Shown: one piece after another, positions 25,116 through 46,831 of the stretch
Layout of the letters: the number at the start of each line of letters is the position of its first letter
How positions within the stretch are numbered: position 1 is the stretch's first letter
DNA from: a bacterium
GTDB lineage: Bacteria; Electryoneota; AABM5-125-24; Hatepunaeales; Hatepunaeaceae
Direction: 5' to 3'
Length of the DNA: 46,831 nt
NCBI GenBank assembly: GCA_025774605.1
Contig: JALGVR010000012.1
Span: 1 to 46,831, forward strand
Position numbers and translations under genes: made by a program
Notes under the pieces: generated by a model
The model's input: only the letters and a program-made list of their open reading frames with translations
What the model was told of the DNA's origin: nothing
The model's database searches: none

Positions 25116-25741
25116 TTTTTACCCTTCTTGTCCTTGGATTCAAGCTTGGCGGAGGCATCGACGCGCTGAAAGATGACCTTGTCAATCAGACCGTATTCTC
25201 TGGCTTCTTCGGCGGTCATTATATTGTCGCGATCGGTGTCCTTGGCGATCTTCTCTATCGGCTGGCCGGTGGCTTCAGCAAATATCTCGTTAAGCCGATC
25301 GCGGGTTTTCAAAAGGTTTCTGGCATGTATATCAATGTCGGACGCCTGCCCCTGCATGCCGCCCATCGGTTGATGAATAATAACCTTTGAATTGGGCAGC
25401 GCCGAGCGCTTCCCCTTCGTCCCCGCGGTCAACAGCAACGCTCCCATCGAGGCGGCATTCCCGATGGCGATGGTGGCGATATCAGGCTTGATGTATCGCA
25501 TGGTGTCGTAAATCGCCAACCCTGAAGAGACCACTCCACCGGGGGAATTTATATAAATCGAGATATCCTTGTCGGGATCCTCTGCCTCGAGAAATATGAG
25601 CTGCGCTATCACCAGGCTGGCCACGTTGTCGTCTATGCCTCCGGCGATAAAGATAATCCGCTCCTTCAACAACCGTGAGTAGATATCATACGCTCTTTCG
25701 CCTCGACCAGTCTGTTCGATCACCATTGGTACTAAATTCAT
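25112..25741 (-). CDS. clpP: ATP-dependent Clp protease proteolytic subunit
   Basis: [66 protein letters not shown]. Confidence 0.97.
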
Positions 25742-27281: not shown

Positions 27282-29579
27282 TCACTTCTCGTCCAGGGAA
27301 CTGTTCCTCCATGCCACCGGGCTCTCTCCCGATACGACCCATGTTCCCTTGCGGATGTTTTTATCGTCCTCGAACAGCAGATAACTGTACTTGCCGTAAT
27401 GCGGCAGCTTTCTCGTACCCCCGACGATATCCGCATCGGGAAGCGCCAGGGTATAGACGAGCGTCTTTTCGGAGTCCTTCGGATTGCGTTCGATCATGGT
27501 CGCAGTCAGTTTCCCCCCGCGGAACTCCTCGCGCCTGAACCTTATCCCCGCCGGCAGCGGCCGCTCCTCCCGCCAGCGCGGCGCGCGTGAAGGCAGGTAT
27601 GCCAGTCTCGACGGATCCATCGAGAACGTGGAGAAGACGCGGTTGATCTCCGGATCACCGAACAGCCACACTGATTTCTTCTCCATGTCAGGTGTGAACT
27701 CGGCATCCGTCACCACCTGCTGACCATCTGACTTCAGGCTCTCCGCAATCCGTCTGAATTCGTGGACTTTCAAGCCCTGGGACGGTATGACCAGGATACC
27801 GTCGGCATCACCGAAAAACTCCGCAAGCGTCAACGGCATCTCCCCCGGATATACCTTTCGGAACAGATCAAACGCCGGGTCCAGTTGCAATGTCCTGATC
27901 TCGCCTCCCCCCGTAAGCTTGACGGCCTGACGCGGATTCTCGATGAACACCTGATGATACACGCTGCCGATATCCGACAGAACCCTGATCGGGAGCAGGT
28001 ACTTGTACGGTCTGCCGTCCGCAGCGGTGGTGACCACCTCAAACTCCGCTTTCCACCCGCCTTCCAGGTTTTCGACAACCATGTTCTCAATCGCCAACTC
28101 GGGTGCACCGGTGCGGTAAAGCCACTGGTCGAAAAACCAGTTCAGTTTCTGTCCGAGTCGCCGCTCGAACTCCTTTCGCCATTCACGCCAGCCGATCGGC
28201 TGCCATTGATACTTGCGATAGGTCTCTCCGATCACCTGCATGAAAATCGCCTCGTCATACTCATCGAGCATTCTGCGCAACATGTGAAAGATCATCATCA
28301 CCTTGCCGTAGCCGATCGCCCTGTCAGCGGGATTTGACCTCTCCGCGAACTCAACCACGGGATAGTCGTTGTCCGAATTGACATAGGCGGCGTAGTCGCG
28401 CAGCTGGTTCATCCGATACTCCACCGCCGCCAGGCTGTCAGCTTCCTCCTTGTACCTGTAATCCGCCAGGTAAACGGTCAATCCTTCGCACCAGTTGCCC
28501 TGCCGGTAATCGACCAGCAGCGAGTTCCCCATCCAGTTGTGGGTGATCTCGTGTCCGAGTGAGGTTCGCTTGATGAACGGCAGTCTCAGTACTTCGCTGC
28601 CAAGCAGTGTCCAGCCGGGCATACCGTATCCCGAAGGCAGGAAGTTGTCCACAACGGCAAACTTGGGGAAGGGATACGGTGCAATCAGGTCGGAATACTT
28701 GTCGATATATTTTATGCATGACTCGAGGTATCCTTCCGACAGCCCGGCTTGTTCGGGAAGAAAGTACGTCATCACCGCAACGCCGTTGTGGTCGACCTTC
28801 TCCACCACGAACGGTCCGGCGCTGAGCGAGAGCGCGCCGGTGACGACATCCGAGGTATGGGTGACCTCCACCCAGCCGTCCCGCTCCAGCGCACCTCCCG
28901 GCATTCCATCGGTTACGCAATTCCATCCCTCGGGCAGTCTCACTGTAATTTCATAGGTCGATAAAACATCCGGCAAAGTCGGATACCAGTAGGCTGAAGG
29001 CGACAGGTATATCCCCTCCGGACCGATCGTACCGTTGACCTCGAAGGCTATCTTTTCCCGTGAGAACCGGCGGTTGTCCGGTTCAACGTACAATGACCCC
29101 GAAAAATCGACCTTCAGCACAAGGGGTTTGGCTTTGAAGGCCCGTTTCAACTCCTTTCCCTGTGATTTACTGGACGTCTCAGTCGTCCAGAGCAGGGCGC
29201 CGCGGGCATCCCAGTCACCGAAAACGCCGTAATCAGGGGAAACGGACCCGGGGTCATCCAGTGGTCGGCTCGTCAGACTGACCGGAGCTCCTCCAAGCTC
29301 GGCGTTTCCGACGGAGAAATCCTTGTTCAGAAGGAATCCGGCGACCTTCACCCCCCTGCGCGGCAGGGTCAGACGCGCCGTACCTTCAATGGTGTGATCC
29401 TCCAGGTCGAAACTAACCGACAGCCGATGGTGTTCGACAGGTTGCCGTATGACAGTTCCGGACTTTGCCAGGATAGAGCCGCCGCCCAGCATAAGAATAA
29501 TTATGGGAATCAAAGGCTTCACGATAATCTCCGGTTTGAAATATGTATTACGGGAATGATAAAACTTGTTTGAACCCAT
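27282..29579 (-). CDS. M1-like metallopeptidase (gluzincin), secreted
   Basis: Signal-like N-terminus; HEITHNWMGNSLLVDYRQGNWCEGLTVYLADY (HExxH...E). Exact start uncertain. Confidence 0.85.
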   Translation of the reverse strand: MGSNKFYHSRNTYFKPEIIVKPLIPIIILMLGGGSILAKSGTVIRQPVEHHRLSVSFDLEDHTIEGTARLTLPRRGVKVAGFLLNKDFSVGNAELGGAPVSLTSRPLDDPGSVSPDYGVFGDWDARGALLWTTETSSKSQGKELKRAFKAKPLVLKVDFSGSLYVEPDNRRFSREKIAFEVNGTIGPEGIYLSPSAYWYPTLPDVLSTYEITVRLPEGWNCVTDGMPGGALERDGWVEVTHTSDVVTGALSLSAGPFVVEKVDHNGVAVMTYFLPEQAGLSEGYLESCIKYIDKYSDLIAPYPFPKFAVVDNFLPSGYGMPGWTLLGSEVLRLPFIKRTSLGHEITHNWMGNSLLVDYRQGNWCEGLTVYLADYRYKEEADSLAAVEYRMNQLRDYAAYVNSDNDYPVVEFAERSNPADRAIGYGKVMMIFHMLRRMLDEYDEAIFMQVIGETYRKYQWQPIGWREWRKEFERRLGQKLNWFFDQWLYRTGAPELAIENMVVENLEGGWKAEFEVVTTAADGRPYKYLLPIRVLSDIGSVYHQVFIENPRQAVKLTGGGEIRTLQLDPAFDLFRKVYPGEMPLTLAEFFGDADGILVIPSQGLKVHEFRRIAESLKSDGQQVVTDAEFTPDMEKKSVWLFGDPEINRVFSTFSMDPSRLAYLPSRAPRWREERPLPAGIRFRREEFRGGKLTATMIERNPKDSEKTLVYTLALPDADIVGGTRKLPHYGKYSYLLFEDDKNIRKGTWVVSGESPVAWRNSSLDEK

Positions 29580-30029: not shown

Positions 30030-30072
30030 TTATTTTGGGTTGCATTCCGCTCTGGAAATTGTATATTGTGCG

Positions 30073-30149
30073 CTTAAGGTACAGGTTGTCCGCACAGGCG
30101 CCATTAGCACTACTCACCACACCTCCAAATATCCTTAACGTACAGGTTG
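30073..30149 (+). repeat. Direct repeat cttaa[g/c]gtacaggttg upstream of the giant gene
   Basis: cttaaggtacaggttg (30073-30088) and cttaacgtacaggttg (30134-30149): 15/16 identical, 61 bp apart. Confidence 0.6.
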
Positions 30150-30229: not shown

Positions 30230-33200
30230 ATGAGCTTGGAGAAGCGTATGAAGCGTTTCGCTATTCTTTCCGGTCTGCTCGCAGTCGTTTTGACCCTGAC
30301 GAGCAGCACAGCTATGGGACAACATTTTGAGCCTGTGGTCAATGAAGGCTCTTCCCACTCCCTTATCATACAATCCGCCACCATCGATGGTGTCGAATTG
30401 GTTGAAAACGACGAGATCGGCGTTTTCACCCCGGCAGACATATGCGCCGGCGCTGTCGTCATCGAGGATGAAGCGCCATATGGTCTGGCTGCCTTCGGTG
30501 ACGATCCCGAATCCGAAGAAATCGATGGATTCCTGGGCGGCGAAGTTTTCGCCTTCAGATTCTGGGATGCCTCCGCCGGTGAGGAGCTGGAAGCCATGGC
30601 ACAGTTCGGCGAAGGACCAGAAGTCTGGGAATTAAACGGCGTCACCGTATTAACCAGGTTGTTCTGGTATGAAGAGCCTGTGCCGCTGATCGACCTCTCC
30701 GCCGATGAACATGACTTCGGCGTGATGGGTATCGATCAGACCATTGGGTGGACTCTGACAATCACCAACATCGGCACGGGCGACCTGACTGTCAGCGAAG
30801 CCACCCTTAACAACCAGGCTTTCAACACCGACTTCGATGGTGAATTCACTCTGGAGCCGACCGAGAGCCACGATATGCTGGTAACGTTCACTCCTCCGGA
30901 TGCCGACGAATATAATGGTACCCTTGCCATTTCAAGCAACGACGAAGAGAACGATGAAGTTAGCGTCACGCTTCACGGAACGGGCACTGAAGACATCACG
31001 CCGGACATCACCCTGTCCGGTTATGAGATCGACTTCGGGGAATGGCCCATCGACTGGAGCCGCAACCGCGTATTGACCATCACGAATGAAGGAACCGGAT
31101 TGCTTACCATCAGCGATTTGGATGTCGATCCGGACGTCTTCACAACCGATTGGAACGAAGAGGATGTTGAGATTCAACCTGCTGAATCGTTCGATCTTAC
31201 CGTCACTTTCACTCCTGATGAAGATCAGACCTACGAGGGTGAGCTGACCATCACCTGCGACGATCCCGACGAGGAGATCGTGGTCGTTGACCTCCTGGGA
31301 ACAGGCACCATGTTCGAGGATCACTTCCACCACATTCGTTCAGGCACCAGCCATTCGCTGCTGGTCCTTGAGGCAAGCATAAACGGTGAAGCGCTGGTCA
31401 CCGGCGATGAGATCGGCGTCTTCAATGATGACGGCGTCTGCTCCGGTCACGGCGTTGCCACGGGAATCATGGATGGAAGAGGGGGGACTCAACTCGGTTT
31501 CGGCGCCTGGCAGGCGATGGACGACATCCCCGGATTCAACATGGGCGATACAATCCGATACCGCATCTGGGATCTCTCCGCCGAGTTGGAGATCGTTGCG
31601 ACCGTCCACCGTTATCTGCAAGGCGGGCCGCGTTTCCAGGGTCAGGACGGTTTCAGCGTCGTCGACTCGCTCTACGCCAATACCGCCGATGAGCCGGATA
31701 TCATGGTTTCGCCTGTTCTGATGGACTTCGGACAGGTGGGTACCGGTTATTCCAGCACCCAGTACGTCCGCATTCGAAACGTTGGCGCAGACGTGTTGAG
31801 GGTAACCAATATCGAATCGACGGAACCTTTCTTCGAACCGAATTTTCAGGTTGGTTTCATTGTCAGACCCGGTCGTCAGGTTTACGTCGGCGTAACGTTC
31901 ACCCCCGAGGAGATTCAAACCTATGACGCCATTCTCGAGATCACGTCCGATTCGCCGGACGAAGAGCTCGTGGAAGTGGAGTTGACCGGCGAGGGTATAG
32001 AACCGCCGGCAATGATCGAAGTAAGTGAAACATCGCACAACTTCGGAATAATACCGGTCGGGTCAGACCTGTCATGGGAGCTAATAATTTCCAACGCGGG
32101 CGGCCTGGACCTGACCATCGACAGCTTGACCTCCGACAACGACGTCTTCACGACCGATTTTCCGGACGAAGGCGTTGTACTTGGCCCGGACGAGAACACC
32201 GCCGTCCAGGTTACATTCAGTCCCGAGGACAATATCTTTTACATGGGCGCGCTGACTATCTATAACGATGATCCGGATGAGGAAGATCAGGCGCTGGAAG
32301 TCGACCTGGCGGGACGCGGTGAATACCTGCCCGTGATCAGGGTGCGACCGTTGCGCGTCGATTTCGTAGACGTTGAAATCAATACCGAGGAGACGGCTGA
32401 TGTCACCATCATCAACGACGGCGGCGCCAACCTGGTCGTCTCGGACATCAGCGTCAGCGGGCAGTACTTCTCCGTGGACTTCGAGGGTGAGTTCGAAGTT
32501 GAACCCGAGGGCGAACACGACTTCCAGGTTCACTACAACCCGACGGAAGTGGGTGACCACGACGGCACCATAACCATCACGTCCAACGATCCCAATCAGC
32601 ATGAGAAACTGGTTCCGGTTTCGGGTAATGCCATCGAAACGCCGGAACCGCCCGAAGTGGTCAACCCCATTGACGATGTCCAACTAGCAGAGGATTTTGA
32701 TCCGTACGTTGTTGCGGACCTGGACGACGTATTCATGGATCCCAACGAGGACGTACTGGAATACAGCGTCCAGAGCAGTGACGAAAACCTGATCGTGGAG
32801 GTTCAGGACGGACACCTGTTGTACATGGACAGAGTGGAGAACTGGTTCGGAACCGCCACGGTCACCGTTACGGCCGATGACGATCCGGGCGGCGGACGCG
32901 ACCGCGGTCCCGTCAGGGGATTACGCTCGATCAGCGGCAACGGCTTCAACCCGCGCCGCGACCTGACGGCCCAGGATGAATTCGATGTCGAAGTGACCGC
33001 CGTCAACGACGCTCCAGAATGGATCGACGTCCCGGATGCGGTCGAAGATGACGAGGGGGCGCTGATCGAACTGACTCTCGTTGGCGAAGATGTAGACGAA
33101 GATGATCTTACCATAACATACCAGTCGGACGATCTGCCGGAAGCGGTTGAATTTTCAGACAACGGCGACGGCACAGCCGGCTTCACCTGGCAGACCACCT

Positions 33201-36200
33201 ACGATGACGCCGGTGATTATTCAGCGACCTTCACCATCTCGGACGCCGAGTACGACATAGCCACCGATGTCGATTTCACCATCAACGACGTCAACCGCGC
33301 TCCGGTCTGGGATTCCCTGCCGGAGGAAATCGAGCTCGACGAAACCGATATCCTTGCCGCCACCTTCGAGGGGCACGACCCGGACGGCGATGACGTTCAG
33401 ATCAGTTACGCGTCCGACGACCTCCCGGAGGACAGGATCGACTTCATCGACAACGGCGACGGCACGGCGGACATCGTGTGGCAGACGAACTACGACGACG
33501 CCGGTACGTACCACGCAACCTTCACCATCTCGGACTACCAGTACGACACGGATCGCGATGTCACCATCACCGTTCACAACGTGAACCGTTCCCCTGAATG
33601 GACCGAAGTTCCCGAACCGATCAGCGTCGAGGAGGGCGAAGTTGTTGAATTTACGGTGGAGGGTATCGATCCGGACAACGACGATTTAACCATCGACTAC
33701 GATCCCGGCGCCGACCCCGCACTCCCCGGAGACGCCTTCACAGACAACGGCGACGGAACCGGTGATTTTTACTGGGTCACAACGGACGGCGACGACGGCG
33801 AATATCGCGCGACCTTCACGCTCTCGGACGGCGAAATGGAAGTTGATGCTGAGGTCATCATCGCGGTCGGCGATGTCAACCATCCGCCAACCTGGGAAGA
33901 AATCCCCGACCAGGTGGAGGGCGACGAGAACTCGACGATCGAATTCACCGTCACAGGCGTCGATCCCGACGAAGACCCGGTGACGCTGACCTATTCCTCC
34001 GATGATATTCCTGATGACGCGCAGTTCACCGACAACGAGGACGGCACCGGGACATTCAGCTGGGAAACCGGCTTTTACGACGCGGGCGAATACACCGCCA
34101 CCTTCACGGTTTCCGACGAGACATATGACGTCAGCCACGACGTCACGGTCACGGTCAACAACGTGAACCGCATGCCGGCATGGTTCTCGATCCCCGAAGA
34201 GACCATCGTGGTTGACGAGGGCGACCAGATCCAGTTTACCGTTGAGGGCGACGATCCCGACGAGGATGATGAACTTACGATCACGTACAACTCCGACAAC
34301 CTGCCCGAAGCAGTCGAATTGGATGATCACGGCGACGGAACGGCAACGTTCACCTGGCAGACATGGTATCTCGACGCGGGCGACTACACCGTAACCTTCA
34401 CCCTCAACGACGGCACGGACGAAGCCGTTTCGGATGAGGTGGCGATTACCGTGAACGACCGCAACGCCCCACCGGAGTGGACGGATGTGCCGGAGAGGAT
34501 CGACGCCGAAGAGGGCGACCTCATCGACCTCACCATCGTCGCCGAAGACGTGGACGAGGATCAGATTACGCTGACGTTCCGCTCGGACGATCTTCCTGAA
34601 GATGTACATTTCACGGATCACGGCGACGGCACCGGAACATTAGTGTGGCAGACCGATTACCAGGACGCCGGCGACTACCTGGCAATATTCACAGCCTCCG
34701 ACGATGAGTTCGACGTTGACGTTGAGGTTCCCATCAGCGTCGGCGACGTCAACCAGGCCCCGGTGTGGGATTACGCACCCAACCAGGTTTCGCTCGCCGA
34801 GGATGAAGACTGGTCGCTGACCGTCGAAGGCTCCGACCTCGACCTGGACGAGCTCACGATCGAATACAGTTCCGATGATATACCTGAAGCCGCCGAGTTC
34901 GTCGATCACGGCGACGGCACCGGGACGCTGAGCTGGCGTCCGAGCTTCGACGACGCCGGAAATTATCAGGCGACCTTCACCATCTCCGACGGCAACTTCG
35001 ACGTCTCCACAATCACCGAGATCGAAGTTACCAACACAAATCGTCCGCCGGTCTGGGACGATTATCCGATGGACCCGATTGATGTAAATGAGGATGCGCT
35101 AGTTGAATTCGTGGTCTCCGGTCATGATCCCGACGAGGAGGGTGTCACCATAACATACAGCACACACGACCTCCCCGAAGTTGTGGAGTTCAATGACAAC
35201 GGCGACGGCACCGCCGACTTCTCGTGGCAGACCGCCGCAGGCGACGAGGGAGACTATACGGCAACGTTCAGCATGACCGACGGGGATCTCAGGGTTGAGA
35301 TCGATGTCGAAATAAGCGTCTCCCACATCAACCATTCCCCCTTCTGGGTCGATGTCCCGTTCGAAGTACACGCCGATCCCGATGAACGATTCTCCATCGA
35401 TGTCGTGGGGGATGACCCTGATGAGGGCGATGAACTGGAGGTGTCCTGGTCAAGACTGGGCGAAATGCCGCCCGGGTCGATCCGGCGGTTCACCGATCAC
35501 GGTGACGGCTCGGCAACGCTTGAGCTCCAGATCGACGAGGTCGGAACTTACGGGGTCGCATTCCACCTGCGGGACGGCGAATTCACCATCGACGCGGATG
35601 TCGTCATCACCATCGGTGATGTAAACCGACCGCCTTACTGGGTCACTGATTTCCCGTTGAATTACCGCGTGAACGAGAACGCCCTGATCGAGTTCTCCGT
35701 CGCCGGTGAAGATCCCAACGAGGATGACGATCTGACCATCGTTTTCAACTCCGACGATCTGCCCGAAGACGCGCAGTTCACGGACAATGAAGACGGTACC
35801 GGCGACTTCGCCTGGCAGACGACCTACGACGACGCAGGTCACTATACCGCCACATTCACGCTCTCGGACGGTGAATACGAGAGGACCGGCGAAGTAACCA
35901 TCACCGTGAACGACATGAACCGTTCACCTGAATGGACAGTCCTGCCCGGCTCGTGGGCGGCGGACGAGAACACGCTTATGCAGTTCGATATCAGCGGTGA
36001 AGACCCGGACGGCCAAGATTTAACGATCACCTTTACGTCCGAAGACCTGCCGGACGCCGTTGAATTCACCGACAACGGCGACGGAACCGGCAGATTCTCC
36101 TGGGCTGTCACCTACGATGACGCCGGGCGATACACCGCTTCCTTCACACTCTCCGACGGCGAACTCGACGTGACCCGCGAGACGTCAATCCGGGTAAACA

Positions 36201-39200
36201 ACGTCAACCGGGCACCGACCTGGGATGAATACCCCCACGATATGACCGTGGACGAGGGCGATCTGGTCAACTTCCGTGTAATGGGCAGCGACCCGGACAA
36301 CCAGGAGCTGACCCTGTCCGCCGAACCGCTCGATATGCCCGAAACCGTGGAATTTATCGATAACGGCGATGGAAGCGGGCAGTTCACCTGGCTGACGAAC
36401 TACACCGACGCCGGTCGCTACTGGGTCAGGTTCACCATTTCCGACGGCGAACTGGAGGAGACGATCGCCATCCGCATAAGCGTCGACAACGTCAACCGCT
36501 CGCCGTATTGGACATTCGTTCCCGAACAGGTGAGCGGCGCCGAGGACGAGAACATCTCGTTCAACGTGGCCGGCGCCGATCCGGACCTGGAGGACGAGCT
36601 GACCATCAGCTACGCTTCCGGTGATCTGCCCGAGGAGGCTTCGTTTACCGACAACGGCGACGGCACGGGCGGCTTCACGTGGCGTCCGGACTTCGACCAG
36701 TCCGGCGAATATACGGCAACATTCACCTTGAGCGACGGCGAATTTGAGGTGCAGGCGGAAGTGCCGATCAGCGTGGAAAACAGCAACCGACCGCCGGTCT
36801 GGACCGATGATGTCTCTCTGGTTCGCGTCGACGAGGACGGCGACCTTGAGCTGACGGTCACCGGTACCGACCCCGACGGCGACGACCTTTCGATCGAATA
36901 CCAGTCGGATGACATCCCGGGCCGAGAGTCCGACTTCACCGACAACGGCGACGGAACCGGAACACTGACCTGGCACCCCGGCTATGAGCAGGCGGGAGAA
37001 TACACCGCCGAGTTCATTCTCTCGGATTACGAGGGTGCGATACCGGCCAGAAGGATCTCCATCATTGTGGATGATGTCAATCGCCCGCCCGAATTTGTGT
37101 CGTTCCCCGAAGATGTTATCGCTGTCAACGAGGACAGTTGGGTGGCGTTTTCGGTTGAGGGCGGTGATCCCGACGGCGACAACCTCATCCTGAGTTACGA
37201 GTCTGATGACATCCCCCAGGCGGCCATCTTCAGAGACAACCGAAACGGCACGGGGACATTCACCTGGCACACCGGATATGATGACGCCGGAGATTACACG
37301 GGCACAATCACTTTGTCCGACGGCGATCTGAGCGTAGCGGCGGACTTCCAGATCAGCGTTGAGAACGTCAATCTTCCGCCCGAATGGACCAGCGTTCCCG
37401 ATGAGATCGAAGGAATTGAGAACACGACCATAGATTTCATTATACAGGGCGCAGATCCGGATGACGACGACCTCGCCATTACATTCACGTCCGATGATCT
37501 CCCCGAGGAGGCGCGCTTCCTTGACTTCGGCAACGGCGCCGGCAGGTTCTCATGGCGTCCCAATCTGGTTGACGCGGGTGATTATACAGCCCTGTTCAGT
37601 CTCTCCGACGGCGAATTCGACGTTGAGGCCGAGGTTGAGATTACAGTGGCAAACCTCAACCAGACTCCCGCCTGGGCTGAATTTCCCGATGATATCGTTG
37701 TCGATGAGGGTCAGTATATAGAATTCATGGTCGTCGGTATGGATTCGGATCCATCCGACGAACTGACCGTTACATTCAGCTCCATCGAGCTTCAGCCGGT
37801 GGCGCAGTTCACCGATCACGGCGACGGGAGCGGAACGTTCTCATGGCAGACCACCTTCGAGGATGCCGGTGAATACGTCGCCACCTTTACGCTCTCCGAC
37901 GGCATGGATGACATTTCCGGGGACGTGAACATCACCGTCAATAATGTGAACCGTCCTCCCTCATGGATATCTGTCAACAACAACCAGAACGAGCTGAGGG
38001 TTGACGAAGGCGATATCGTCCGCTTCACCGCGCGCGGCTATGATCCGGACGACGACGACCTCACGATCACCTTCGACCGCGACCTGTTACCCGATGAAGC
38101 GGAGTTCACCATTCAGGGTCCCGGGGTGGCGCTGTTCGTCTGGCAGACGACCCACGAGGACTTCGGCGTCTATGACCTGACCTTGACGCTATCCGACGGC
38201 GAGTATGAGGATAGTTTTGATATGCAGCTCCTGGTCGGCGACGTCGACCGCCCGCCGGTCTGGACAAGGATGCCCGACAACCTGCGGATCGACGAGAATG
38301 CCCTGCTCCAGTTCCAGGTGGTCGGAAGGGATCCCGATGACGATGAACTGACGCTCGAGCTTTCCTCGGACGACCTGCCCGACGACGTCGAGTTCACAAT
38401 CGATTACAACGGCGCCGGAACCTTCCGCTGGGAACCCGGGTACGGCGATGCTGGGGAATACACGGCGACATTTACGCTCTCCGACGGCGAAAACAGCATC
38501 GTGAGCGATGTAAACATCGTTGTCAATGACATCAACCTTCCGCCGTACTGGGTCGTGATCCCTGATGTGGCGGAGATAAGGGAGGATGAGGAATTCATCT
38601 CCTTCAACGTCGAAGCAGCCGATCCCGACGGGGATGAACTTACCATATCGTACAGCTCGGACAACCTGCCCGAGGACGCGAGATTCGGTGATTTCGGCGA
38701 CGGCACAGGCAACTTCGTCTGGCTGATCACATACGACGACGCCGGTCATTACACGGCGACATTTACGGTCTCGGACGGTGAATACGAGGTTACAGAGGAC
38801 GTGACGATCAACGTGATCAACGTCAATCGCGAGCCTTCCTGGACTGATGTTCCCGAAGAGATCCGCGTCGCTGAAAACGAACTTATCCTGTTCACCGTGG
38901 AAGGTTCCGATCCCGACGGGGACGATCTTCTGATCAGCTATACCTCCAACGGCATCCCGAGGGGAGCGACGTTCGTGGACAACTACGACGGAACCGGCAC
39001 CTTCAGGTGGAATACCACGTATGCCGATCAGGGTGATTACATCGCCTGGTTCACGCTGTCCGACCGCGACTACGACGTGGTGGCTGAAGTCCCGATCACG
39101 GTCACCAACGTTAACAGGGCGCCCCGCTGGACAGATTATCCCGATGACATGACGGTTACCGCCTTCGGCGATGAACCGACGGATATCCGGGTTCAAGCCG

Positions 39201-42200
39201 TTGATGATGACGGTGATCAGATCATTTATACATGGCGGTTCATCGGCGACGAGCTGAATGACGCTGATTTCGAGGTCGTGGACGGCGCGGCGGTTCTGAC
39301 CATCAATCCGACCAGGTTCGAGCTCGGTGATTACCAGGTCAGGTTCGCAGCATCGGACGGAAGACTGAGTACCCGCCTGGTGATCGATATCAACGTTGTC
39401 AGCCAGCATTTCATACTGGAGGCTGCAACCAACCGTCAGCATACGGTGCGCGTCGAGAGCATCAGCAACTACCTTGACGAGAACGACCGTGACAATCCGG
39501 ACGTTAACGATGAGATAGCCGCCATCACTCCCGATGGAATCGTCGCCGGCGTCTACCGGTTCGGAAACGAGAACGCCCCCTGGATAATGACGACGATGGG
39601 CGCTACTCAGGACGCGGCGGGCTTCAGACCGGGAGAAGGCTTCACATTCCGTTATTGGGATTATGACGTCGGCATGGAGAACGGCGCCAACGCCACCCTC
39701 ATCGCCGGCGACGAAACCTGGCGCATCGACGGCTTCTCGGTGTTCGAACTGGTGATCGGACCCGGACTGGCCGCTGACGTCAAAAGCCTCGATTTCAACC
39801 TGGTCAGGGTGGACGATCAGGCCTCAGATGAGATCACCTTCCTGTCCAACGGAACAGCTCCAGTCGAAGACCTCAGGCTCGCCGTCGCGGGAGACGGTTT
39901 CAGTGTTGACGACGAAGGTCCGGTCACGCTTGAACCGGGCGAGGAATGGACGGTCACCGTCACCTTCGCGCCGGATGAATTCGGCGAATTTGACGCCGTA
40001 TTAAGTGCAACTTCGGAATTTACATCACTTGAAATTCCGCTCCATGGAACCGGTGTCGAGATGGGGCACTTCGTCTACGACATAACCTCAGACTTCCACA
40101 TGATCGAGGTGCTGGATGCGGACGTCGATGTCGATCACGAGATAGGCATCTTCAACCCGACCGGATTGTGCGTGGGTGCGGTGATAATCCGCGGGCACGG
40201 TCCATGGAACCTTTACGCCTGGGGCGATGATCCGGAAACACGAAACATCGACGGCTTCCGTACCGGCGAGGAGTTCGAGTTCAGGCTCTGGGACGGCCAG
40301 GAGGAGACCACCGCACTGGTAAACTATCATTACGGACCCCACACCTGGGCCTCCGGCAGTATGACGGCCGTCTCGCTTGTCACCGGAGAACAACATTTCA
40401 ACTGGATAGCAACCCAGTCCGTCCACAACCTGACGGTGGGTTCGGTCGACTTCTTCGGTGAAGAGCTTGCTGCCGGGGATGAGATCGCCGTGGTCAACCC
40501 GCGCGCCCTGGTTTCCGGCGGGATGGTGGTTGACGGCGGCGACATGGAGTTCGCGGCTTACGGGGACAATCCGGAGACCGACTACTTCACCGAGGGCTTC
40601 CTGGCGGGTGAACACATCTATTTCCGCGTCTGGATCAGGGACGAGGATCGTGAATACCTCGCCCGTCCTGAATGGACAAACGGACCGCAGGTATGGACAG
40701 AGGACGACGCCAGCAGCTTGAACCTGACGGTCACCCGTGAAAACGCCGCGCCTGTATTCAGTCCGCATGATGACGTTTCCGGCACCGAATCCCAGGAGCT
40801 CAGCTTCACGATTACATCCACGGATTACGACGGCGACGCCATCAGCCTGGCGTTGACCGGAATCGATCTGCCGGAATTTGCGGCATTCAGCGATCAGGGC
40901 GACGGCAGCGGCACGTTCACCTGGACACCGGGACCACTGGACGCCGGTGACCACGTTGCCGCCTTTACCGCATTCGACGGCTGGTCATGGCGCGAGTTCG
41001 AAGTCGCCATCAGGATATCGAACCTCAACCATGCACCGGTATTCGAGGAAATAGGCGACCGGCAGGTTGCCGAAGGCGAACCGCTATCCATCCTTATCAA
41101 GGCTGAAGACAGGGACGGCGACCAACTCAGCTATTCGGTACAGTTGGCCGACGGTATGGAGGGAGCCTATATGATCGGACCGCTGATGCGCTGGACGCCC
41201 GACTACGGCCAGGCCGGAGTGTACGAGGACGTTCTCTTCAGGGTTACCGACCATGGTCAGCCACCCCTCCACGCCGAGGAGAGCATCACCATAACCGTGA
41301 CCGAAGGCAACCGTGCTCCGGTGTGGAGCGATGTGGCTCCCACCGTGGTAAATGAGGGGGCAACCGTCAACATGACCGTTACAGCCACAGACGAAGACGG
41401 TGACGAATTGGCGCTGAGCGCCGGCGATCTGCCCGAAAACGCCGACTTCACCGACAACGGGGATGGAACCGGCACATTCGTCTGGCAGACCGACCACGAA
41501 TCGGCGGGAGTCTATAATCCGTACTTCGAGGCTGACGACGGCAATACAACAGTCGGCATGACGGTTGAAATCACTGTGAACGACGTAAACCGCAGACCGT
41601 TGTTTGACGATATCGACAACCAGGTGGTGAACACCGGCAGCACACTCGACCTGCGGATCAGCGCCGTCGATCCCGACGAAGGTGACCAGGTCAATCTGGT
41701 CATGAACGCCGCCAACCTGCCTCCACGAGCCAGCTTCAGAGATCTCGGCGAGGGCAGCGCCCGCCTGGTTTGGACACCGGGACGGGCGGACAGGGGAATC
41801 TATCCGAACATCACCTTCAGCGTCGCAGACGCCTCCGGCGCATCCGATCAGGCAAGGATAACCATTACCGCCCGGATGCTGGACGTGACCGGTCCCGTTA
41901 TCACCGATCTGTCGCCGGAGAACAGGCAGATACTGAGGGTCAACGAAGTCTCGGTCAGCGCAACCATCACGGATGCGGCGTCAGACGTGGAAGCGGTCGA
42001 ATTCAGCTTTGACGGCCAGGCGATGGATGACTTCGATTTCGACGCCGAGTCTGGTGAATTCAGCTGGTCGCCGGATGACGCGCTTGCCGAAGGAGAACAC
42101 AGTTACACCATCCGGGCTGAAGACAGTGCGGGCAATGTCAGCCGGGTTACGGTTCTCTTTGTGGTCAACAGCAGTGCCGGCGCAATCGGTCTGGATGACC

Positions 42201-45200
42201 TCGACCGGTACACAACGCTTGAGACGGTCGACTTCACCGGTCTCGCCGAGCCTTTCCTCCACCTCGAGTTGTGGCGGAACGGCGAACTCCTGCGGGAAAT
42301 CGCCGCCGGACGCCGCGGGCATTTCCGCTTTGCCGCCGTCGAGCTGAATCCACGCGAAAACGTATTCATCCTCGCCGGCTACGACGATGCGGACAATGCG
42401 GCTCCCAACGATACAATCGAGATCTACCTCGATCTTGAGGCGCCGGTGATCGAAGTGTCAAGTCCCGGACGTTTCACCGACGACGCGACGCCCCAGATCC
42501 AGGTTCAAATCACCGATATCGGTGTCGGCATGGATGAGGACGAGGGCGCGTACCTGTCGCTGGACGGTGAGAATATCGGTGACTTCGTCCTCCGCAACGA
42601 ACTCTTGACCTACAACGTACCGGAAGATCTCGAAGAGGGTGAGCATTTCTTCAACCTGACGGCGGTCGACCTGCTCGGCAATTCACCCGAAGAATCGTAT
42701 GATATACCGTTCTTTGTTGATACCGAGCCCCCTGCTGTCATTCATCCGTTCTTTGAGGGCGGGATCGAGAACATCGGCAACCGCGCCCCGGAGATTCACA
42801 TCGCCGTCAACGATCCGGCGCCGACCAGCGGGATCGCCGGCGACCAGATCGTTCTCACGGTTGACGGCTTCGAGCGCGATTTCACCTGGAATGAAGTCGA
42901 AAACTCCGTTTACTTCGACTTCAGCATCGGTGAATTCGATCTGCTCGAGCCGGGACTTCACGAAATCGAGTTGACCGTTTCGGATCTGGCCGGCAACGAG
43001 ACCACGGCGACGGGCGAATTCAACATCGGCAACTACGATGACAACAATCCGCTCTATTTCGAAAACATGAACCCGCCCGACGGCAGCGTCGCGGGTGTTG
43101 GCGGAGGCGGTTTCGAACTGATTCCCTACCGCTTCGACGTCGATACGATCTCATTCGTCGCCAGCGATATTGATGCCGGCGTCGATTGGGATACGATCTG
43201 GCTCCGAATCATCGCCCTTAACGATCCCGACGACCCGGATGATGACGATACGACGATCATAGACAACGGGGAACTGGTCTTCCAGATACCTCCGGGCCGC
43301 GTCCTGGCGCCGATGTGGTACACGCTGCCCGGGCAGGAGCGCGCTCCGGCTGAAATGCCCGGTCTCGAAGAGGGCATCAACCAGATAAACGCCTTCGGCG
43401 CCGACGACAACGGCAATGAGGGTGAAGGACAGTGGGAGTTCTTCTTCGACGCTTCGGAACCTGAACCACCCGAGCTTGATGATCCCGACAACTACTACGT
43501 GAACACGCCGGAGGTCAGCGTCAGCGGCAGAACCGGCGATGACCTGCCGGAATACCCGGATGGTTACGACGATATCGTCACCGTCCGGATTTACCGCAAC
43601 GGTGAATTGACCGTTGAAGAGCTCGTTGATTTCAACTCCGAATTCACCGTATCAGGCGTCCTTCTGGTCGAGGGCAGGAACATCATCGAAGCCACCTGCG
43701 TGGACGGAGGCGGCAACGAATCGATCTACAGCGATCCGATTGAAATGTTCCTCGACATGATGGTTCCAGGCATCGTGAACTTCGAGGCTCAAGACGGACC
43801 GCACATTGCGGATGATACGCCAATCTTCACCGCCCAACTGGTCGATAACGGCTCCGGCATCGATGCCGATAACATAACGCTGCTGGTTAACGGCGAGGAG
43901 GTCGCAGGCGAGTTCGCTGACGGCGTATTCAGCGCCGAGGTCCAGGATGCGATGGATGAAGGGGATTACACCGCCGGACTGACCGTGCTGGACATGGCGG
44001 GCAACGAGACGAGCGAGGAGTACGAGTTCGACATCGACCTGCAGGCCGTAGCTGTTCCCGAGTTCACCCTGACCGCATACACCAGCGTCGATCAGGTGCA
44101 TCTGACCGGAACCGGTCAGGTCGGCACCGAGGTTGTTGTTTACCACCTCGAAAACCCCGATGACGAGCTGAACGAAGATTCGGAGATCGGTCGGGTTTCG
44201 CTGGCGAATGAGGCGGAATTCGAATTCACCCGCACCATCGCAGACCTGCCCGATGTATCCTATATCAGGCTGGTGGCGGTGAACGAGGCTGAGGTGGAGA
44301 GCAGTCCGACCGATCCGCAGGCGCTGACCGTTGATCAGGATGCTCCGGAATTCACGGAGGCTTCACCTGAGGATGGCGCCGAAGTGAATGCTGAAGAGTT
44401 GGCTGAGATCCGGATCAATGTTTCGGACGAGCTCGCCGGCGTGGACGAAAACGGCTTCACGGTAACGCTTGACGGCGATGATGTCGATGACTTCACCTAT
44501 GCCGACGGCGTTTTGACCGTCGACGTCAGCGATGTCGAATTCGGCGACAACAGTACGGTTTCGGTAACGGTCATCGGCTGTGACCTGGCGCTGACGCCCA
44601 ACATCGCCAACATGAGCTGGCAGTTCGTCACCGTCATCAACGATCCGCCTGTTGTGAACGTTCCCGACAGAGACTTCGATGAAGACACGTATCTGTCGAT
44701 CAACCTCCAGGATTATATCAGCGATCCCGACAACACGTGGGAGGAGCTGACCATCTCCGGAGAGATCACCGAAGGCGGCGATAATGCGGAACTGACGATT
44801 GACGACGAAGGAGTTCTGCACCTGAACGCTGACGACAACTGGTTCGGCGACCTGACGATCGAAGTCAGAGCCGAGGACTCGGGAGGTTTGTCCGATGCCG
44901 GCACAGCCGATATAACGGTCAATCCGGTCAACGATCCGCCGGTCATGGAGGATCCCGGAATCGAGGTCGCCATGGAGGGCGAGCTGTTCGAGCTCCAGAT
45001 CAACGCGACCGACATCGATCAGGATGAGCTGACCTTCACGGACAACACCGACCTGTTCAACATCACCGCGGACGGTATGATCTCATTCGAGCCGACGCGC
45101 GAGATGCGAGGCATCAACACGATAACCATTACGGTCACCGACGTCGCTGACGCCAGCGATGAGGGTACGCTTCAACTGGTGGTCTCACCCGGCATGAACG

Positions 45201-46831
45201 CCCCGACACTGGCTGCCGGTATCGCCGACCAGAACTTCCTCGAGGATGACAACATGAGATTGATCACCAATCTTTACAACAACTTCGAGGATCCGGACGG
45301 TGATGAGCTGATCTTTACGGTAACCCCCGATCAGGACTGGCTGACGGTTAACCTGACCGATGAGGCTGACCTTTACCTGCAGCCCGAACCGGATGAAAAC
45401 GGCATCGTTGAGGTCGCCGTATCCGCCACCGACGGAGTGGGTGTCGCCGTCGATACATTTGTAGTGGATGTCGCGGCGGTCAACGATCCACCCCACCAGG
45501 TTCGCCCGATGCCGCTCGAAATCACCATGAACGAGGACGATACGTTCGTGGTCGCCGACCTCGACTCCATCTTCGAGGATATCGACGAAGGCGTACTCAG
45601 TTACTACACCGAGGGCGGTGAGAATCTCGGAGTCATAATCGACGCCGATAACATCCTGTCCATCAACCCGCTTGAAAACTGGTTCGGTTCCGAGATGTTC
45701 ACGCTGTTCGTGGACGACGGTGTCGGAGACAGGCTGGGCGGACCGGTCAGGCACCGCAGCGACCTGAACGACGCCTGGTCGTTCGGTTCCAACTCACCGC
45801 GTCGTGATGAGGCGATGTCGATCGATTTCACCGTCGATGTCATCGATGTCAACGACGCACCGCTGGTTCCGAACCCGATCGGTGAAGTTCAGGTCGACGA
45901 GGACGCCGGGCCGTGGACCATTGCCGACCTTGACACCATCTTCTTCGAGCCTGACGGTGAGATGATGTCCTACACCGTCGTGGCTGACGATCCGCTCCAA
46001 ACGTTCATCAGCAACGAAAACATCCTCAGTCTGAACGCACCGGCCGATTTCTTCGGCGCCGGTCTGAACGTCACCATCACCGCCGAGGATGCAAGCGGAT
46101 CCCAGACGCCCGATGACTTCACGGTTGATGTGCTCAACATTCCCGATCCGCCCGAGGTCATTCAGCCGATCGACGACAGGGCGTACGACGAGGACAGCGG
46201 ACCGTGGACGATCATCGATCTGGATGAAGTCTTCTTCGACAAGGACGGCGATCCGCTCGCCTACTCAGCCGAAGTAAGTGATCCGTCGGTCGAGTGGAGT
46301 ATCGACGCGGACAACGTGTTGATCCTCACCACACCCGAGAACTACAACGCCGAGGATGTGGAAATCACCGTGACCGCCGATGACGGCGAGGCGGGCGCTG
46401 GCTCCGTTTCGTTCGGCAATTCCCGGGCAGTGAGGAGAGTTGATCGTGATGCCGGCCCTGTCCGACTCCTTCGCTCTATCGGCGCCGACCACAACTCCGC
46501 CTTGAGCTTCGGCAGCGGTTGGAATGCACAACAAGACACCCGGGCACGCCGGGATCTGCAGGTTGAAGAAGCTTTCAGCCTGACGGTCGTGCCGGTCAAC
46601 GACGCGCCGACCGTGGACGATTACCCGGTGGAAGTCGTTCCCAACGAGGGCGAACTGGTGCAGTTTACCATCACGGCTTCAGACGTGGACGGCGACGCCC
46701 TGACATTGTCAATGACTGACGACGACGGCACCATCGAGCGCGGCGCCCAGTTCGAGGACGCCGGTGACGGCACCGCCAGGTACACTTGGCAGACCGACTT
46801 CGAGGATGCAGGGAACTACTACCCGGTGTTC
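30230..46831 (+). CDS. Giant secreted multidomain Ig/cadherin-like repeat protein, 3'-truncated by the window end (5,534 codons visible)
   Basis: ATG 30230; MSLEKRMKRFAILSGLLAVVLTLTSSTAMGQHFEP signal peptide; frame checked at many sites (e.g. 33290, 39968, 45842) and still open at the final codon 46829-46831. Not in the supplied ORF track. Confidence 0.95.
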   Translation, partial: MSLEKRMKRFAILSGLLAVVLTLTSSTAMGQHFEPVVNEGSSHSLIIQSATIDGVELVENDEIGVFTPADICAGAVVIEDEAPYGLAAFGDDPESEEIDGFLGGEVFAFRFWDASAGEELEAMAQFGEGPEVWELNGVTVLTRLFWYEEPVPLIDLSADEHDFGVMGIDQTIGWTLTITNIGTGDLTVSEATLNNQAFNTDFDGEFTLEPTESHDMLVTFTPPDADEYNGTLAISSNDEENDEVSVTLHGTGTEDITPDITLSGYEIDFGEWPIDWSRNRVLTITNEGTGLLTISDLDVDPDVFTTDWNEEDVEIQPAESFDLTVTFTPDEDQTYEGELTITCDDPDEEIVVVDLLGTGTMFEDHFHHIRSGTSHSLLVLEASINGEALVTGDEIGVFNDDGVCSGHGVATGIMDGRGGTQLGFGAWQAMDDIPGFNMGDTIRYRIWDLSAELEIVATVHRYLQGGPRFQGQDGFSVVDSLYANTADEPDIMVSPVLMDFGQVGTGYSSTQYVRIRNVGADVLRVTNIESTEPFFEPNFQVGFIVRPGRQVYVGVTFTPEEIQTYDAILEITSDSPDEELVEVELTGEGIEPPAMIEVSETSHNFGIIPVGSDLSWELIISNAGGLDLTIDSLTSDNDVFTTDFPDEGVVLGPDENTAVQVTFSPEDNIFYMGALTIYNDDPDEEDQALEVDLAGRGEYLPVIRVRPLRVDFVDVEINTEETADVTIINDGGANLVVSDISVSGQYFSVDFEGEFEVEPEGEHDFQVHYNPTEVGDHDGTITITSNDPNQHEKLVPVSGNAIETPEPPEVVNPIDDVQLAEDFDPYVVADLDDVFMDPNEDVLEYSVQSSDENLIVEVQDGHLLYMDRVENWFGTATVTVTADDDPGGGRDRGPVRGLRSISGNGFNPRRDLTAQDEFDVEVTAVNDAPEWIDVPDAVEDDEGALIELTLVGEDVDEDDLTITYQSDDLPEAVEFSDNGDGTAGFTWQTTYDDAGDYSATFTISDAEYDIATDVDFTINDVNRAPVWDSLPEEIELDETDILAATFEGHDPDGDDVQISYASDDLPEDRIDFIDNGDGTADIVWQTNYDDAGTYHATFTISDYQYDTDRDVTITVHNVNRSPEWTEVPEPISVEEGEVVEFTVEGIDPDNDDLTIDYDPGADPALPGDAFTDNGDGTGDFYWVTTDGDDGEYRATFTLSDGEMEVDAEVIIAVGDVNHPPTWEEIPDQVEGDENSTIEFTVTGVDPDEDPVTLTYSSDDIPDDAQFTDNEDGTGTFSWETGFYDAGEYTATFTVSDETYDVSHDVTVTVNNVNRMPAWFSIPEETIVVDEGDQIQFTVEGDDPDEDDELTITYNSDNLPEAVELDDHGDGTATFTWQTWYLDAGDYTVTFTLNDGTDEAVSDEVAITVNDRNAPPEWTDVPERIDAEEGDLIDLTIVAEDVDEDQITLTFRSDDLPEDVHFTDHGDGTGTLVWQTDYQDAGDYLAIFTASDDEFDVDVEVPISVGDVNQAPVWDYAPNQVSLAEDEDWSLTVEGSDLDLDELTIEYSSDDIPEAAEFVDHGDGTGTLSWRPSFDDAGNYQATFTISDGNFDVSTITEIEVTNTNRPPVWDDYPMDPIDVNEDALVEFVVSGHDPDEEGVTITYSTHDLPEVVEFNDNGDGTADFSWQTAAGDEGDYTATFSMTDGDLRVEIDVEISVSHINHSPFWVDVPFEVHADPDERFSIDVVGDDPDEGDELEVSWSRLGEMPPGSIRRFTDHGDGSATLELQIDEVGTYGVAFHLRDGEFTIDADVVITIGDVNRPPYWVTDFPLNYRVNENALIEFSVAGEDPNEDDDLTIVFNSDDLPEDAQFTDNEDGTGDFAWQTTYDDAGHYTATFTLSDGEYERTGEVTITVNDMNRSPEWTVLPGSWAADENTLMQFDISGEDPDGQDLTITFTSEDLPDAVEFTDNGDGTGRFSWAVTYDDAGRYTASFTLSDGELDVTRETSIRVNNVNRAPTWDEYPHDMTVDEGDLVNFRVMGSDPDNQELTLSAEPLDMPETVEFIDNGDGSGQFTWLTNYTDAGRYWVRFTISDGELEETIAIRISVDNVNRSPYWTFVPEQVSGAEDENISFNVAGADPDLEDELTISYASGDLPEEASFTDNGDGTGGFTWRPDFDQSGEYTATFTLSDGEFEVQAEVPISVENSNRPPVWTDDVSLVRVDEDGDLELTVTGTDPDGDDLSIEYQSDDIPGRESDFTDNGDGTGTLTWHPGYEQAGEYTAEFILSDYEGAIPARRISIIVDDVNRPPEFVSFPEDVIAVNEDSWVAFSVEGGDPDGDNLILSYESDDIPQAAIFRDNRNGTGTFTWHTGYDDAGDYTGTITLSDGDLSVAADFQISVENVNLPPEWTSVPDEIEGIENTTIDFIIQGADPDDDDLAITFTSDDLPEEARFLDFGNGAGRFSWRPNLVDAGDYTALFSLSDGEFDVEAEVEITVANLNQTPAWAEFPDDIVVDEGQYIEFMVVGMDSDPSDELTVTFSSIELQPVAQFTDHGDGSGTFSWQTTFEDAGEYVATFTLSDGMDDISGDVNITVNNVNRPPSWISVNNNQNELRVDEGDIVRFTARGYDPDDDDLTITFDRDLLPDEAEFTIQGPGVALFVWQTTHEDFGVYDLTLTLSDGEYEDSFDMQLLVGDVDRPPVWTRMPDNLRIDENALLQFQVVGRDPDDDELTLELSSDDLPDDVEFTIDYNGAGTFRWEPGYGDAGEYTATFTLSDGENSIVSDVNIVVNDINLPPYWVVIPDVAEIREDEEFISFNVEAADPDGDELTISYSSDNLPEDARFGDFGDGTGNFVWLITYDDAGHYTATFTVSDGEYEVTEDVTINVINVNREPSWTDVPEEIRVAENELILFTVEGSDPDGDDLLISYTSNGIPRGATFVDNYDGTGTFRWNTTYADQGDYIAWFTLSDRDYDVVAEVPITVTNVNRAPRWTDYPDDMTVTAFGDEPTDIRVQAVDDDGDQIIYTWRFIGDELNDADFEVVDGAAVLTINPTRFELGDYQVRFAASDGRLSTRLVIDINVVSQHFILEAATNRQHTVRVESISNYLDENDRDNPDVNDEIAAITPDGIVAGVYRFGNENAPWIMTTMGATQDAAGFRPGEGFTFRYWDYDVGMENGANATLIAGDETWRIDGFSVFELVIGPGLAADVKSLDFNLVRVDDQASDEITFLSNGTAPVEDLRLAVAGDGFSVDDEGPVTLEPGEEWTVTVTFAPDEFGEFDAVLSATSEFTSLEIPLHGTGVEMGHFVYDITSDFHMIEVLDADVDVDHEIGIFNPTGLCVGAVIIRGHGPWNLYAWGDDPETRNIDGFRTGEEFEFRLWDGQEETTALVNYHYGPHTWASGSMTAVSLVTGEQHFNWIATQSVHNLTVGSVDFFGEELAAGDEIAVVNPRALVSGGMVVDGGDMEFAAYGDNPETDYFTEGFLAGEHIYFRVWIRDEDREYLARPEWTNGPQVWTEDDASSLNLTVTRENAAPVFSPHDDVSGTESQELSFTITSTDYDGDAISLALTGIDLPEFAAFSDQGDGSGTFTWTPGPLDAGDHVAAFTAFDGWSWREFEVAIRISNLNHAPVFEEIGDRQVAEGEPLSILIKAEDRDGDQLSYSVQLADGMEGAYMIGPLMRWTPDYGQAGVYEDVLFRVTDHGQPPLHAEESITITVTEGNRAPVWSDVAPTVVNEGATVNMTVTATDEDGDELALSAGDLPENADFTDNGDGTGTFVWQTDHESAGVYNPYFEADDGNTTVGMTVEITVNDVNRRPLFDDIDNQVVNTGSTLDLRISAVDPDEGDQVNLVMNAANLPPRASFRDLGEGSARLVWTPGRADRGIYPNITFSVADASGASDQARITITARMLDVTGPVITDLSPENRQILRVNEVSVSATITDAASDVEAVEFSFDGQAMDDFDFDAESGEFSWSPDDALAEGEHSYTIRAEDSAGNVSRVTVLFVVNSSAGAIGLDDLDRYTTLETVDFTGLAEPFLHLELWRNGELLREIAAGRRGHFRFAAVELNPRENVFILAGYDDADNAAPNDTIEIYLDLEAPVIEVSSPGRFTDDATPQIQVQITDIGVGMDEDEGAYLSLDGENIGDFVLRNELLTYNVPEDLEEGEHFFNLTAVDLLGNSPEESYDIPFFVDTEPPAVIHPFFEGGIENIGNRAPEIHIAVNDPAPTSGIAGDQIVLTVDGFERDFTWNEVENSVYFDFSIGEFDLLEPGLHEIELTVSDLAGNETTATGEFNIGNYDDNNPLYFENMNPPDGSVAGVGGGGFELIPYRFDVDTISFVASDIDAGVDWDTIWLRIIALNDPDDPDDDDTTIIDNGELVFQIPPGRVLAPMWYTLPGQERAPAEMPGLEEGINQINAFGADDNGNEGEGQWEFFFDASEPEPPELDDPDNYYVNTPEVSVSGRTGDDLPEYPDGYDDIVTVRIYRNGELTVEELVDFNSEFTVSGVLLVEGRNIIEATCVDGGGNESIYSDPIEMFLDMMVPGIVNFEAQDGPHIADDTPIFTAQLVDNGSGIDADNITLLVNGEEVAGEFADGVFSAEVQDAMDEGDYTAGLTVLDMAGNETSEEYEFDIDLQAVAVPEFTLTAYTSVDQVHLTGTGQVGTEVVVYHLENPDDELNEDSEIGRVSLANEAEFEFTRTIADLPDVSYIRLVAVNEAEVESSPTDPQALTVDQDAPEFTEASPEDGAEVNAEELAEIRINVSDELAGVDENGFTVTLDGDDVDDFTYADGVLTVDVSDVEFGDNSTVSVTVIGCDLALTPNIANMSWQFVTVINDPPVVNVPDRDFDEDTYLSINLQDYISDPDNTWEELTISGEITEGGDNAELTIDDEGVLHLNADDNWFGDLTIEVRAEDSGGLSDAGTADITVNPVNDPPVMEDPGIEVAMEGELFELQINATDIDQDELTFTDNTDLFNITADGMISFEPTREMRGINTITITVTDVADASDEGTLQLVVSPGMNAPTLAAGIADQNFLEDDNMRLITNLYNNFEDPDGDELIFTVTPDQDWLTVNLTDEADLYLQPEPDENGIVEVAVSATDGVGVAVDTFVVDVAAVNDPPHQVRPMPLEITMNEDDTFVVADLDSIFEDIDEGVLSYYTEGGENLGVIIDADNILSINPLENWFGSEMFTLFVDDGVGDRLGGPVRHRSDLNDAWSFGSNSPRRDEAMSIDFTVDVIDVNDAPLVPNPIGEVQVDEDAGPWTIADLDTIFFEPDGEMMSYTVVADDPLQTFISNENILSLNAPADFFGAGLNVTITAEDASGSQTPDDFTVDVLNIPDPPEVIQPIDDRAYDEDSGPWTIIDLDEVFFDKDGDPLAYSAEVSDPSVEWSIDADNVLILTTPENYNAEDVEITVTADDGEAGAGSVSFGNSRAVRRVDRDAGPVRLLRSIGADHNSALSFGSGWNAQQDTRARRDLQVEEAFSLTVVPVNDAPTVDDYPVEVVPNEGELVQFTITASDVDGDALTLSMTDDDGTIERGAQFEDAGDGTARYTWQTDFEDAGNYYPVF
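30323..30667 (+). other. GDEIGVF module copy 1
   Basis: HFEPVVNEGSSHSLIIQSATIDGVELVENDEIGVFTPADICAGAVVIEDEAPYGLAAFGDDPESEEIDGFLGGEVFAFRFWD. Confidence 0.75.
30689..31309 (+). other. Two ASH/Hydin-like (choice-of-anchor D-type) Ig modules
   Basis: IDLSADEHDFGVMGIDQTIGWTLTITNIGTGDLTVSEATL...LVTFTPPDADEYNGTLAISSNDEENDEVSVTLHGTG, and a second copy. Confidence 0.75.
31310..31690 (+). other. GDEIGVF module copy 2
   Basis: HFHHIRSGTSHSLLVLEASINGEALVTGDEIGVFNDDGVCSGHGVATG...LGFGAWQAMDDIPGFNMGDTIRYRIWD. Confidence 0.75.
31691..32640 (+). other. Three ASH/Hydin-like Ig modules
   Basis: PDIMVSPVLMDFGQVGTG..., AMIEVSETSHNFGIIPVGS..., LPVIRVRPLRVDFVDVEINTEE..., each ending in T(I/L)xSxxPDE...V.L.G. Confidence 0.75.
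33002..39400 (+). repeat. Tandem array of 22 cadherin/He_PIG-like units, ~291 bp (96-99 aa) each
   Basis: Unit starts at VNRxPxW or equivalent: 33002, 33290, 33581, 33875, 34163, 34460, 34748, 35036, 35327, 35621, 35915, 36203, 36491, 36782, 37076, 37367, 37655, 37946, 38243, 38531, 38822, 39110. Core: D.DEGDL..F.V.G.DPDGDDLTI.Y.SDDLPE.A.FTDNGDGTG.F.WQT.Y.DAGDYTATFTLSDGE..V...V.I.V. Confidence 0.92.
39401..39765 (+). other. GDEIGVF module copy 3 (diverged)
   Basis: SQHFILEAATNRQHTVRVESISNYLDENDRDNPDVNDEIAAITPDGIVAGVYRFG...DAAGFRPGEGFTFRYWDYD. Confidence 0.65.
39766..40057 (+). other. ASH/Hydin-like Ig module
   Basis: GPGLAADVKSLDFNLVRVDDQASDEITFLSNGTAPVEDLRLAVAGDGFSVDDEGPVTLEPGEEWTVTVTFAPDEFGEFDAVLSATS...IPLHGTG. 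Confidence 0.7.
40067..40735 (+). other. GDEIGVF module copies 4 and 5
   Basis: HFVYDITSDFHMIEVLDADVDVDHEIGIFNPTGLCVGAVIIRGHGPWNLYAWGDDPETRNIDGFRTGEEFEFRLWD and QHFNWIATQSVHNLTVGSVDFFGEELAAGDEIAVVNPRALVSGGMVVDGGDMEFAAYGDNPETDYFTEGFLAGEHIYFRVW. Confidence 0.75.
40740..41870 (+). repeat. Second, shorter block of four cadherin/He_PIG-like units
   Basis: ENAAPVFSPHDDVSGTESQELSFTITSTDYDGDAISL...FSDQGDGSGTFTWTPG; NHAPVFEEIGDRQV; NRAPVWSDVAPTV...FTDNGDGTGTFVWQTD; NRRPLFDDIDNQVV. Confidence 0.75.
41880..44340 (+). other. Bacterial Ig-like 'D..GP.I....P' block (Big/FN3-like modules)
   Basis: TGPVITDLSPENRQ, LEAPVIEVSSPGRFTDDATPQIQV, TEPPAVIHPFFEGGIENIGNRAPEIHI, MVPGIVNFEAQDGPHIADDTPIFTA: heterogeneous Ig-like modules. 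Confidence 0.6.
44640..46831 (+). other. Distal cadherin-like block ('NDPPVV...DEDT' type), continuing past the window
   Basis: NDPPVVNVPDRDFDEDTYLSINLQDYISDPD, NDPPVMEDPGIEVAMEGE, NDPPHQVRPMPLEITMNEDDTFVVADLDSIFEDIDEG, NDAPLVPNPIGEVQVDEDAGPWTIADLDTIFF, PDPPEVIQPIDDRAYDEDSGPWTIIDLDEVFFDKDGD. Confidence 0.75.

Follow-up and report, generated by a model that had tools for sequence, protein, structure and literature searches.

A giant cadherin-like protein of Candidatus Electryoneota bears a T9SS type A sorting tail

In the established scheme, T9SS cargo of type A exits via SprA while attached to PorV, and PorU cleaves and anchors it (PMC11205867, PMC10994853); in Flavobacterium, type A cargo likewise passes via PorV and PorU (PMC11205867). 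Type A tails in F. johnsoniae lead to static anchoring or release, whereas the type B tail of SprB leads to motion on the gliding track, and SprB fitted with a type A tail no longer moved (PMC12618676). We investigated a giant open reading frame that runs off a contig of a bacterium from the family of Ca. Hatepunaea (phylum Ca. Electryoneota, FCB group). The DNA analysed, hereafter the window, is the entire contig C61 (46,831 bp) of a draft genome of 2.83 Mb in 175 contigs. This affiliation, together with the BamA and TamB matches within the window, agrees with the uncultured diderm origin proposed in the first-pass annotation. Our literature search found no paper naming Hatepunaea, and the Electryoneota paper PMC10439189 makes no mention of giant, secretion, adhesi-, cadherin or attachment.

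Firstly, we asked whether the frame is a gene. The ORF listing of the window contains a stop-free frame on the plus strand from 30230 to 46831 (5,534 codons, open at its 3′ end), and our stop counts confirmed that this single frame runs to the last base, as had been claimed. It is not a product of chance, since the remaining five frames over the stretch contain 41 to 339 stops each and the GC content by codon position (0.63/0.39/0.72) has the pattern of coding DNA; for random sequence of equal composition, ln P of such a stop-free stretch is about −198. The giant open frame is a real gene, and the long antisense ORFs lying over it are a by-product, antisense frame 0 having 41 stops only. The frame runs off the window simply because contig C61 of the draft assembly ends there. 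The start, previously placed at ATG 30230, lies more probably at ATG 30248, six codons further inside, since a GGAGA Shine-Dalgarno motif and an ATG reading MKR are common to four genera.

30238–30242, plus strand: Shine-Dalgarno-like GGAGA, 5′ of the likely true start, invariant in four genera
30248–46831, plus strand: window part of the giant ORF, 5,528 of the 5,853 codons of the joined frame

Secondly, we searched for the end of the gene. The final 30 bases (46802–46831) match the end of contig C56 exactly and occur in no other place in the assembly. The joined frame continues mid-module, within a cadherin-like module, on the minus strand of C56 from 15873 to its stop at C56:14866; C56 supplies a C-terminus of 335 aa, and the protein counted from ATG 30248 reaches 5,853 aa. 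The join is based on the 30-base overlap and on collinearity with orthologues. The C-terminal signal, which had been expected beyond the window, turned up there in the form of a T9SS type A sorting domain. At the site of the join, the orthologue of genome G003, itself on a single contig, has one module and aligns straight through, and that of genome G006 has two, one more than G003. Since G006 has this additional module, the joined protein may have lost one module of about 97 aa at the join.

The sorting domain occupies the last ~85 residues, where TIGR04183 scores 31.2 bits (cut-off 23) and Pfam Por_Secre_tail 27.8 bits (cut-off 27); the C-termini of the orthologues carry similar tails, judged by eye. 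At the other end of the protein, a charged MKRF precedes what is by hydropathy its most hydrophobic stretch, and this charged start and hydrophobic core, kept in four genera, support the Sec signal peptide predicted at first sight; the mature protein probably begins at about QHFEP. The genome encodes T9SS parts over cut-off, namely SprA (776 bits), PorU (599) and PorV (270), the PorU and PorV genes being adjacent on contig C90, and a PorZ-like protein that matches over its full length at 184 bits, below cut-off. GldM had no match in the genome, by a search equally silent in control genomes and hence no proof of absence, and the type B tail TIGR04131 had none either, in a search that was silent in control genomes too. 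An RTX/T1SS adhesin was rejected, since the Pfam scan of the whole giant protein revealed no RTX family and the C-terminus carries the T9SS tail. A sorting domain, a predicted Sec signal peptide and genes for translocon, shuttle and sortase are all present, so that export of the giant protein as a T9SS type A cargo is strongly supported, the route itself being one that we infer. The 2.8 Mb genome contains 117 type A tail matches, nearly all above the curated cut-off, which makes T9SS secretion a major investment of this genome.

Thirdly, we established the domain architecture of the protein, which reads as follows within the window.

30248–30319, plus strand: predicted Sec-type signal peptide (MKRF start and hydrophobic core; sequence, hydropathy and MKR start in four genera)
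30347–30652, plus strand: DEIGVF module copy 1, an unclassified beta module (AlphaFold2 pLDDT 95.5)
30692–31306, plus strand: two ASH/choice-of-anchor-D (HYDIN-like Ig) domains (Pfam scan)
31340–31663, plus strand: DEIGVF module copy 2
31694–32614, plus strand: three ASH/HYDIN-like Ig domains
33005–39403, plus strand: main rod, 22 consecutive cadherin-like modules of ~97 aa (Big_9, He_PIG, Cadherin_4/5)
39428–40720, plus strand: second cluster, with DEIGVF copies 3 (39428–39745), 4 (40091–40372) and 5 (40412–40720), copies 3 and 4 being separated by an ASH-like domain
40742–42169, plus strand: five more cadherin-like modules, the last one weak
42170–44638, plus strand: Ig-like domains of Big_13, Big_7 and Big_6 type, boundaries approximate
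44639–46831, plus strand: Cadherin_5/Big_9 modules up to the contig end

The Cadherin_5/Big_9 modules are followed by a final domain and then by the T9SS tail. With a mass of 642 kDa, a pI of 4.05, 21.9% D+E and seven cysteines, these domains and the sorting tail, the protein is indeed giant, secreted, acidic and modular, as first described. The earlier statement that it consists entirely of Ig/cadherin-like modules holds for the rod and the Ig modules and has to be amended for the five unclassified DEIGVF beta modules and about six ASH/choice-of-anchor-D domains. Big_9, Cadherin_4/5 and He_PIG were all over the Pfam cut-off. Three modules of the rod were modelled by AlphaFold2 at a pLDDT of 95.7; in Foldseek, the best match of this model had an E-value of 1.2e-17, with cadherins at about 1e-13 and Ig chains also matched, and a sequence comparison of the rod with the PDB retrieved the cadherin CELSR1 (1.6e-26). 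The modules share a mean identity of 45%. The rod has conserved DPDxDD and VNRxPxW features, which appear to resemble the acidic calcium motifs and the linker motifs of cadherins. The Pfam scan recognized no enzymatic domain and no polysaccharide-degrading, toxin or transmembrane parts, and no ligand-binding domain of known specificity was recognized in the protein.

The DEIGVF module (~105–120 aa) is present in five copies in the giant protein and in 72 in total over the window and the related loci compared. It had no match in Pfam or NCBIfam. Its AlphaFold2 model is all-beta; sequence searches against the PDB found nothing, and a Foldseek search of the model against PDB and viral structures gave no match with E ≤ 0.001. 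In a scan that scored at most 53 candidates, the nine genomes of the family each contain from 19 to at least 53 copies, as against 0 to 13 per genome in other families of Electryoneota, with one exception at at least 53; outside the phylum, 2 of 42 genomes have one copy each. On these counts, the module is strongly expanded in the family Hatepunaeaceae.

We next compared the protein with its orthologues in other genera of the family. Two are complete on single contigs (5,952 aa in G006 and 5,833 aa in G003) and a third, in G008, is truncated where its contig stops. Full-length identity to G006 and G003 is 53–54%, even along the protein and collinear from end to end, and only one indel of at least 25 residues was found, of module size (91 aa), against G006. 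Three genera (those of the window, G003 and G006) have 22 modules in the main rod, and the fourth has 23. For both orthologues the module-to-module diagonal scores above all 20,000 permutations, which argues for an old array whose order has stayed intact since the genera split. That module count and order were kept across genera suggests that reach matters. Upstream of the gene, the following elements were located.

30040–30067, plus strand: candidate promoter TTGCAT-16 nt-TATATT, from the four-genus alignment, ~180 nt before the start
27282–29579, minus strand: M1-peptidase-like protein (765 aa), divergent neighbour of the giant gene
25791–27140: tig, conserved upstream context with the M1-like gene, as are the next two
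25112–25741: clpP
23826–25115: clpX

TATATT is invariant in four genera and the TTGCAT-like part is kept in three; a generic promoter scan of the plus strand gave nothing credible. From this alignment, TTGCAT-16-TATATT is a candidate promoter whose transcript would have a long 5′ leader. A direct repeat, CTTAA(G/C)GTACAGGTTG, lies 3′ of it at 30073–30088 and 30134–30149 and was not found upstream of the orthologues. In G003, clpX-clpP-tig-M1-like peptidase stand divergent from the orthologue in unchanged order, and in G008 tig and the M1-like gene were seen beside it. Other genera have the M1-peptidase-like protein in synteny, at ~60% identity. Neither the Rfam scan nor the tRNA scan of the window gave a hit.

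The genome encodes about ten giants, this one included, and their module types overlap. One relative is complete, with 8,938 codons and a T9SS tail (C108:3041–29854), as is a giant of 5,454 codons, also with a T9SS tail (C151:332–16693, minus strand), and several further fragments lie elsewhere in the genome. A 114-base overlap of the ends of contigs C56 and C151 places the 5,454-codon giant downstream, probably at ~16 kb and on the same strand as the giant of the window. Together, the giant open frames listed encode some 36,000 aa and take up close to 4% of the genome. Relatives elsewhere in the family reach 9,396 (open), 10,055 and 10,816 codons, so that the size first singled out as exceptional is real and at the same time less exceptional than implied. 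A second giant family is represented by frames of 7,301 and 7,312 codons in two genera (G006:C4 and G003:C137), and only a 5′ fragment of it was found in the genome of the window (C147).

Our preferred reading, to which we give a probability of roughly 0.62, is that the protein is a T9SS-exported, rod-shaped and static fibre of cadherin-like modules, anchored at the surface, adhesive or cohesive and probably stabilized by calcium. The N-terminal signal peptide would direct Sec export, PorV at the SprA translocon would recognize the C-terminal type A domain, and PorU would cleave this domain, leading to covalent anchoring to surface LPS or to partial release. Since a type A tail goes with static or released cargo and a type B tail with mobile cargo, a static fibre held at its C-terminal end is expected. 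From there, the 22-module rod and ~30 further Ig-like modules would carry the N-terminal DEIGVF/ASH head outward, over ~0.1 micrometre for the main rod if extended and perhaps 0.2 in all, and there the protein would most likely serve attachment or cell-cell cohesion. A giant adhesin or surface fibre, as suggested by the first-pass annotation, is still the most likely reading; its adhesive part we infer by analogy.

The same tail also suits a protein that is released: PorU would cut it off and the rods would assemble extracellularly into a network, sheath or coat. Type A domains can lead to release (PMC12618676), a coat built by co-assembly would be in keeping with a genome that has some ten giant relatives whose module types overlap, and copies of the DEIGVF module have multiplied greatly in the family; however, PorU and a PorZ-like protein are consistent with anchoring and the Pfam scan recognized no known polymerization domain, and we consider a matrix protein unlikely, though worth keeping in view. 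An SprB-like adhesin that is moved along the cell by the T9SS/gliding motor appears quite improbable: a comparable size (SprB has 6,497 aa; PMC9870892), T9SS export and an FCB-group phylum speak for it, but the tail is of the type that stopped SprB from being moved (PMC12618676), and neither TIGR04131 nor GldM was matched, in searches silent in controls.

A factor of predation or symbiosis is very improbable. Giant ORFs of Omnitrophota have been linked to a host-dependent life (PMC10066038), but they are described as poorly conserved with few annotated domains, whereas the present protein is conserved and full of known modules, among which nothing polysaccharide-degrading, toxic or membrane-spanning was recognized. 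Scarcely credible, finally, is an assembly artefact, that is, a frame created by collapsed repeats or chimeric joins. The draft is fragmented, the protein is complete only once two contigs are joined, and the join sits near the sole place where one orthologue carries an extra module. Against this, no exact repeat in the giant ORF reaches 31 bases (the longest has 26), its modules thus being too diverged to mislead assembly; two independent single-contig orthologues are collinear over the full length, in the same order and across the join; and the 30-base overlap is unique. Misassembly inside the ORF, the event named at the outset as fatal to the gene, is hence unlikely, and the artefact reading is already largely refuted, except for the module count at the join.

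In a bolder and less likely reading, DEIGVF may be a new beta-domain family acting as the ligand-binding or self-assembly unit of family-specific giant T9SS fibres, and rods of a length fixed by selection (22 modules) may be spacers of defined reach in a coat of several proteins. This undescribed module is a target for structure and binding work. More generally, a dangling open frame has become a testable hypothesis, and giant surface proteins of a little-studied uncultured phylum are tied to a defined export route, the T9SS, by type A tails.

The giant protein belongs to a known kind, and the system itself is not new. With type A cargo of Bacteroidota (TIGR04183/Por_Secre_tail) it shares the Sec signal, the type A domain and SprA-PorV-PorU, and differs in belonging to Ca. 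Electryoneota and in being ~5,850 aa of Ig/cadherin-like modules in which no enzyme domain is recognized. SprB of Flavobacterium johnsoniae is similar in size class, in being a T9SS cargo and as a presumed surface filament, but its tail is of type B and it travels on the gliding machinery (PMC12618676, PMC9870892), whereas the tail here is type A. MpAFP (RTX/T1SS; PMC4083281) and the 7,651-aa adhesin of the Gram-positive Mobiluncus (PMC10619420) resemble it in their long arrays of ~100-aa Ig-like modules and presumed role of reaching out, and differ in export and anchoring; the repeats of MpAFP are described as identical copies, whereas the modules of the present protein are diverged and fixed in order. 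The giants of Omnitrophota (39,678 aa in Velamenicoccus; PMC10066038) are also extracellular proteins of an uncultured phylum, but they have transmembrane helices, few known domains and poor conservation, in contrast to the protein described here, a T9SS cargo built of known modules and conserved across genera.
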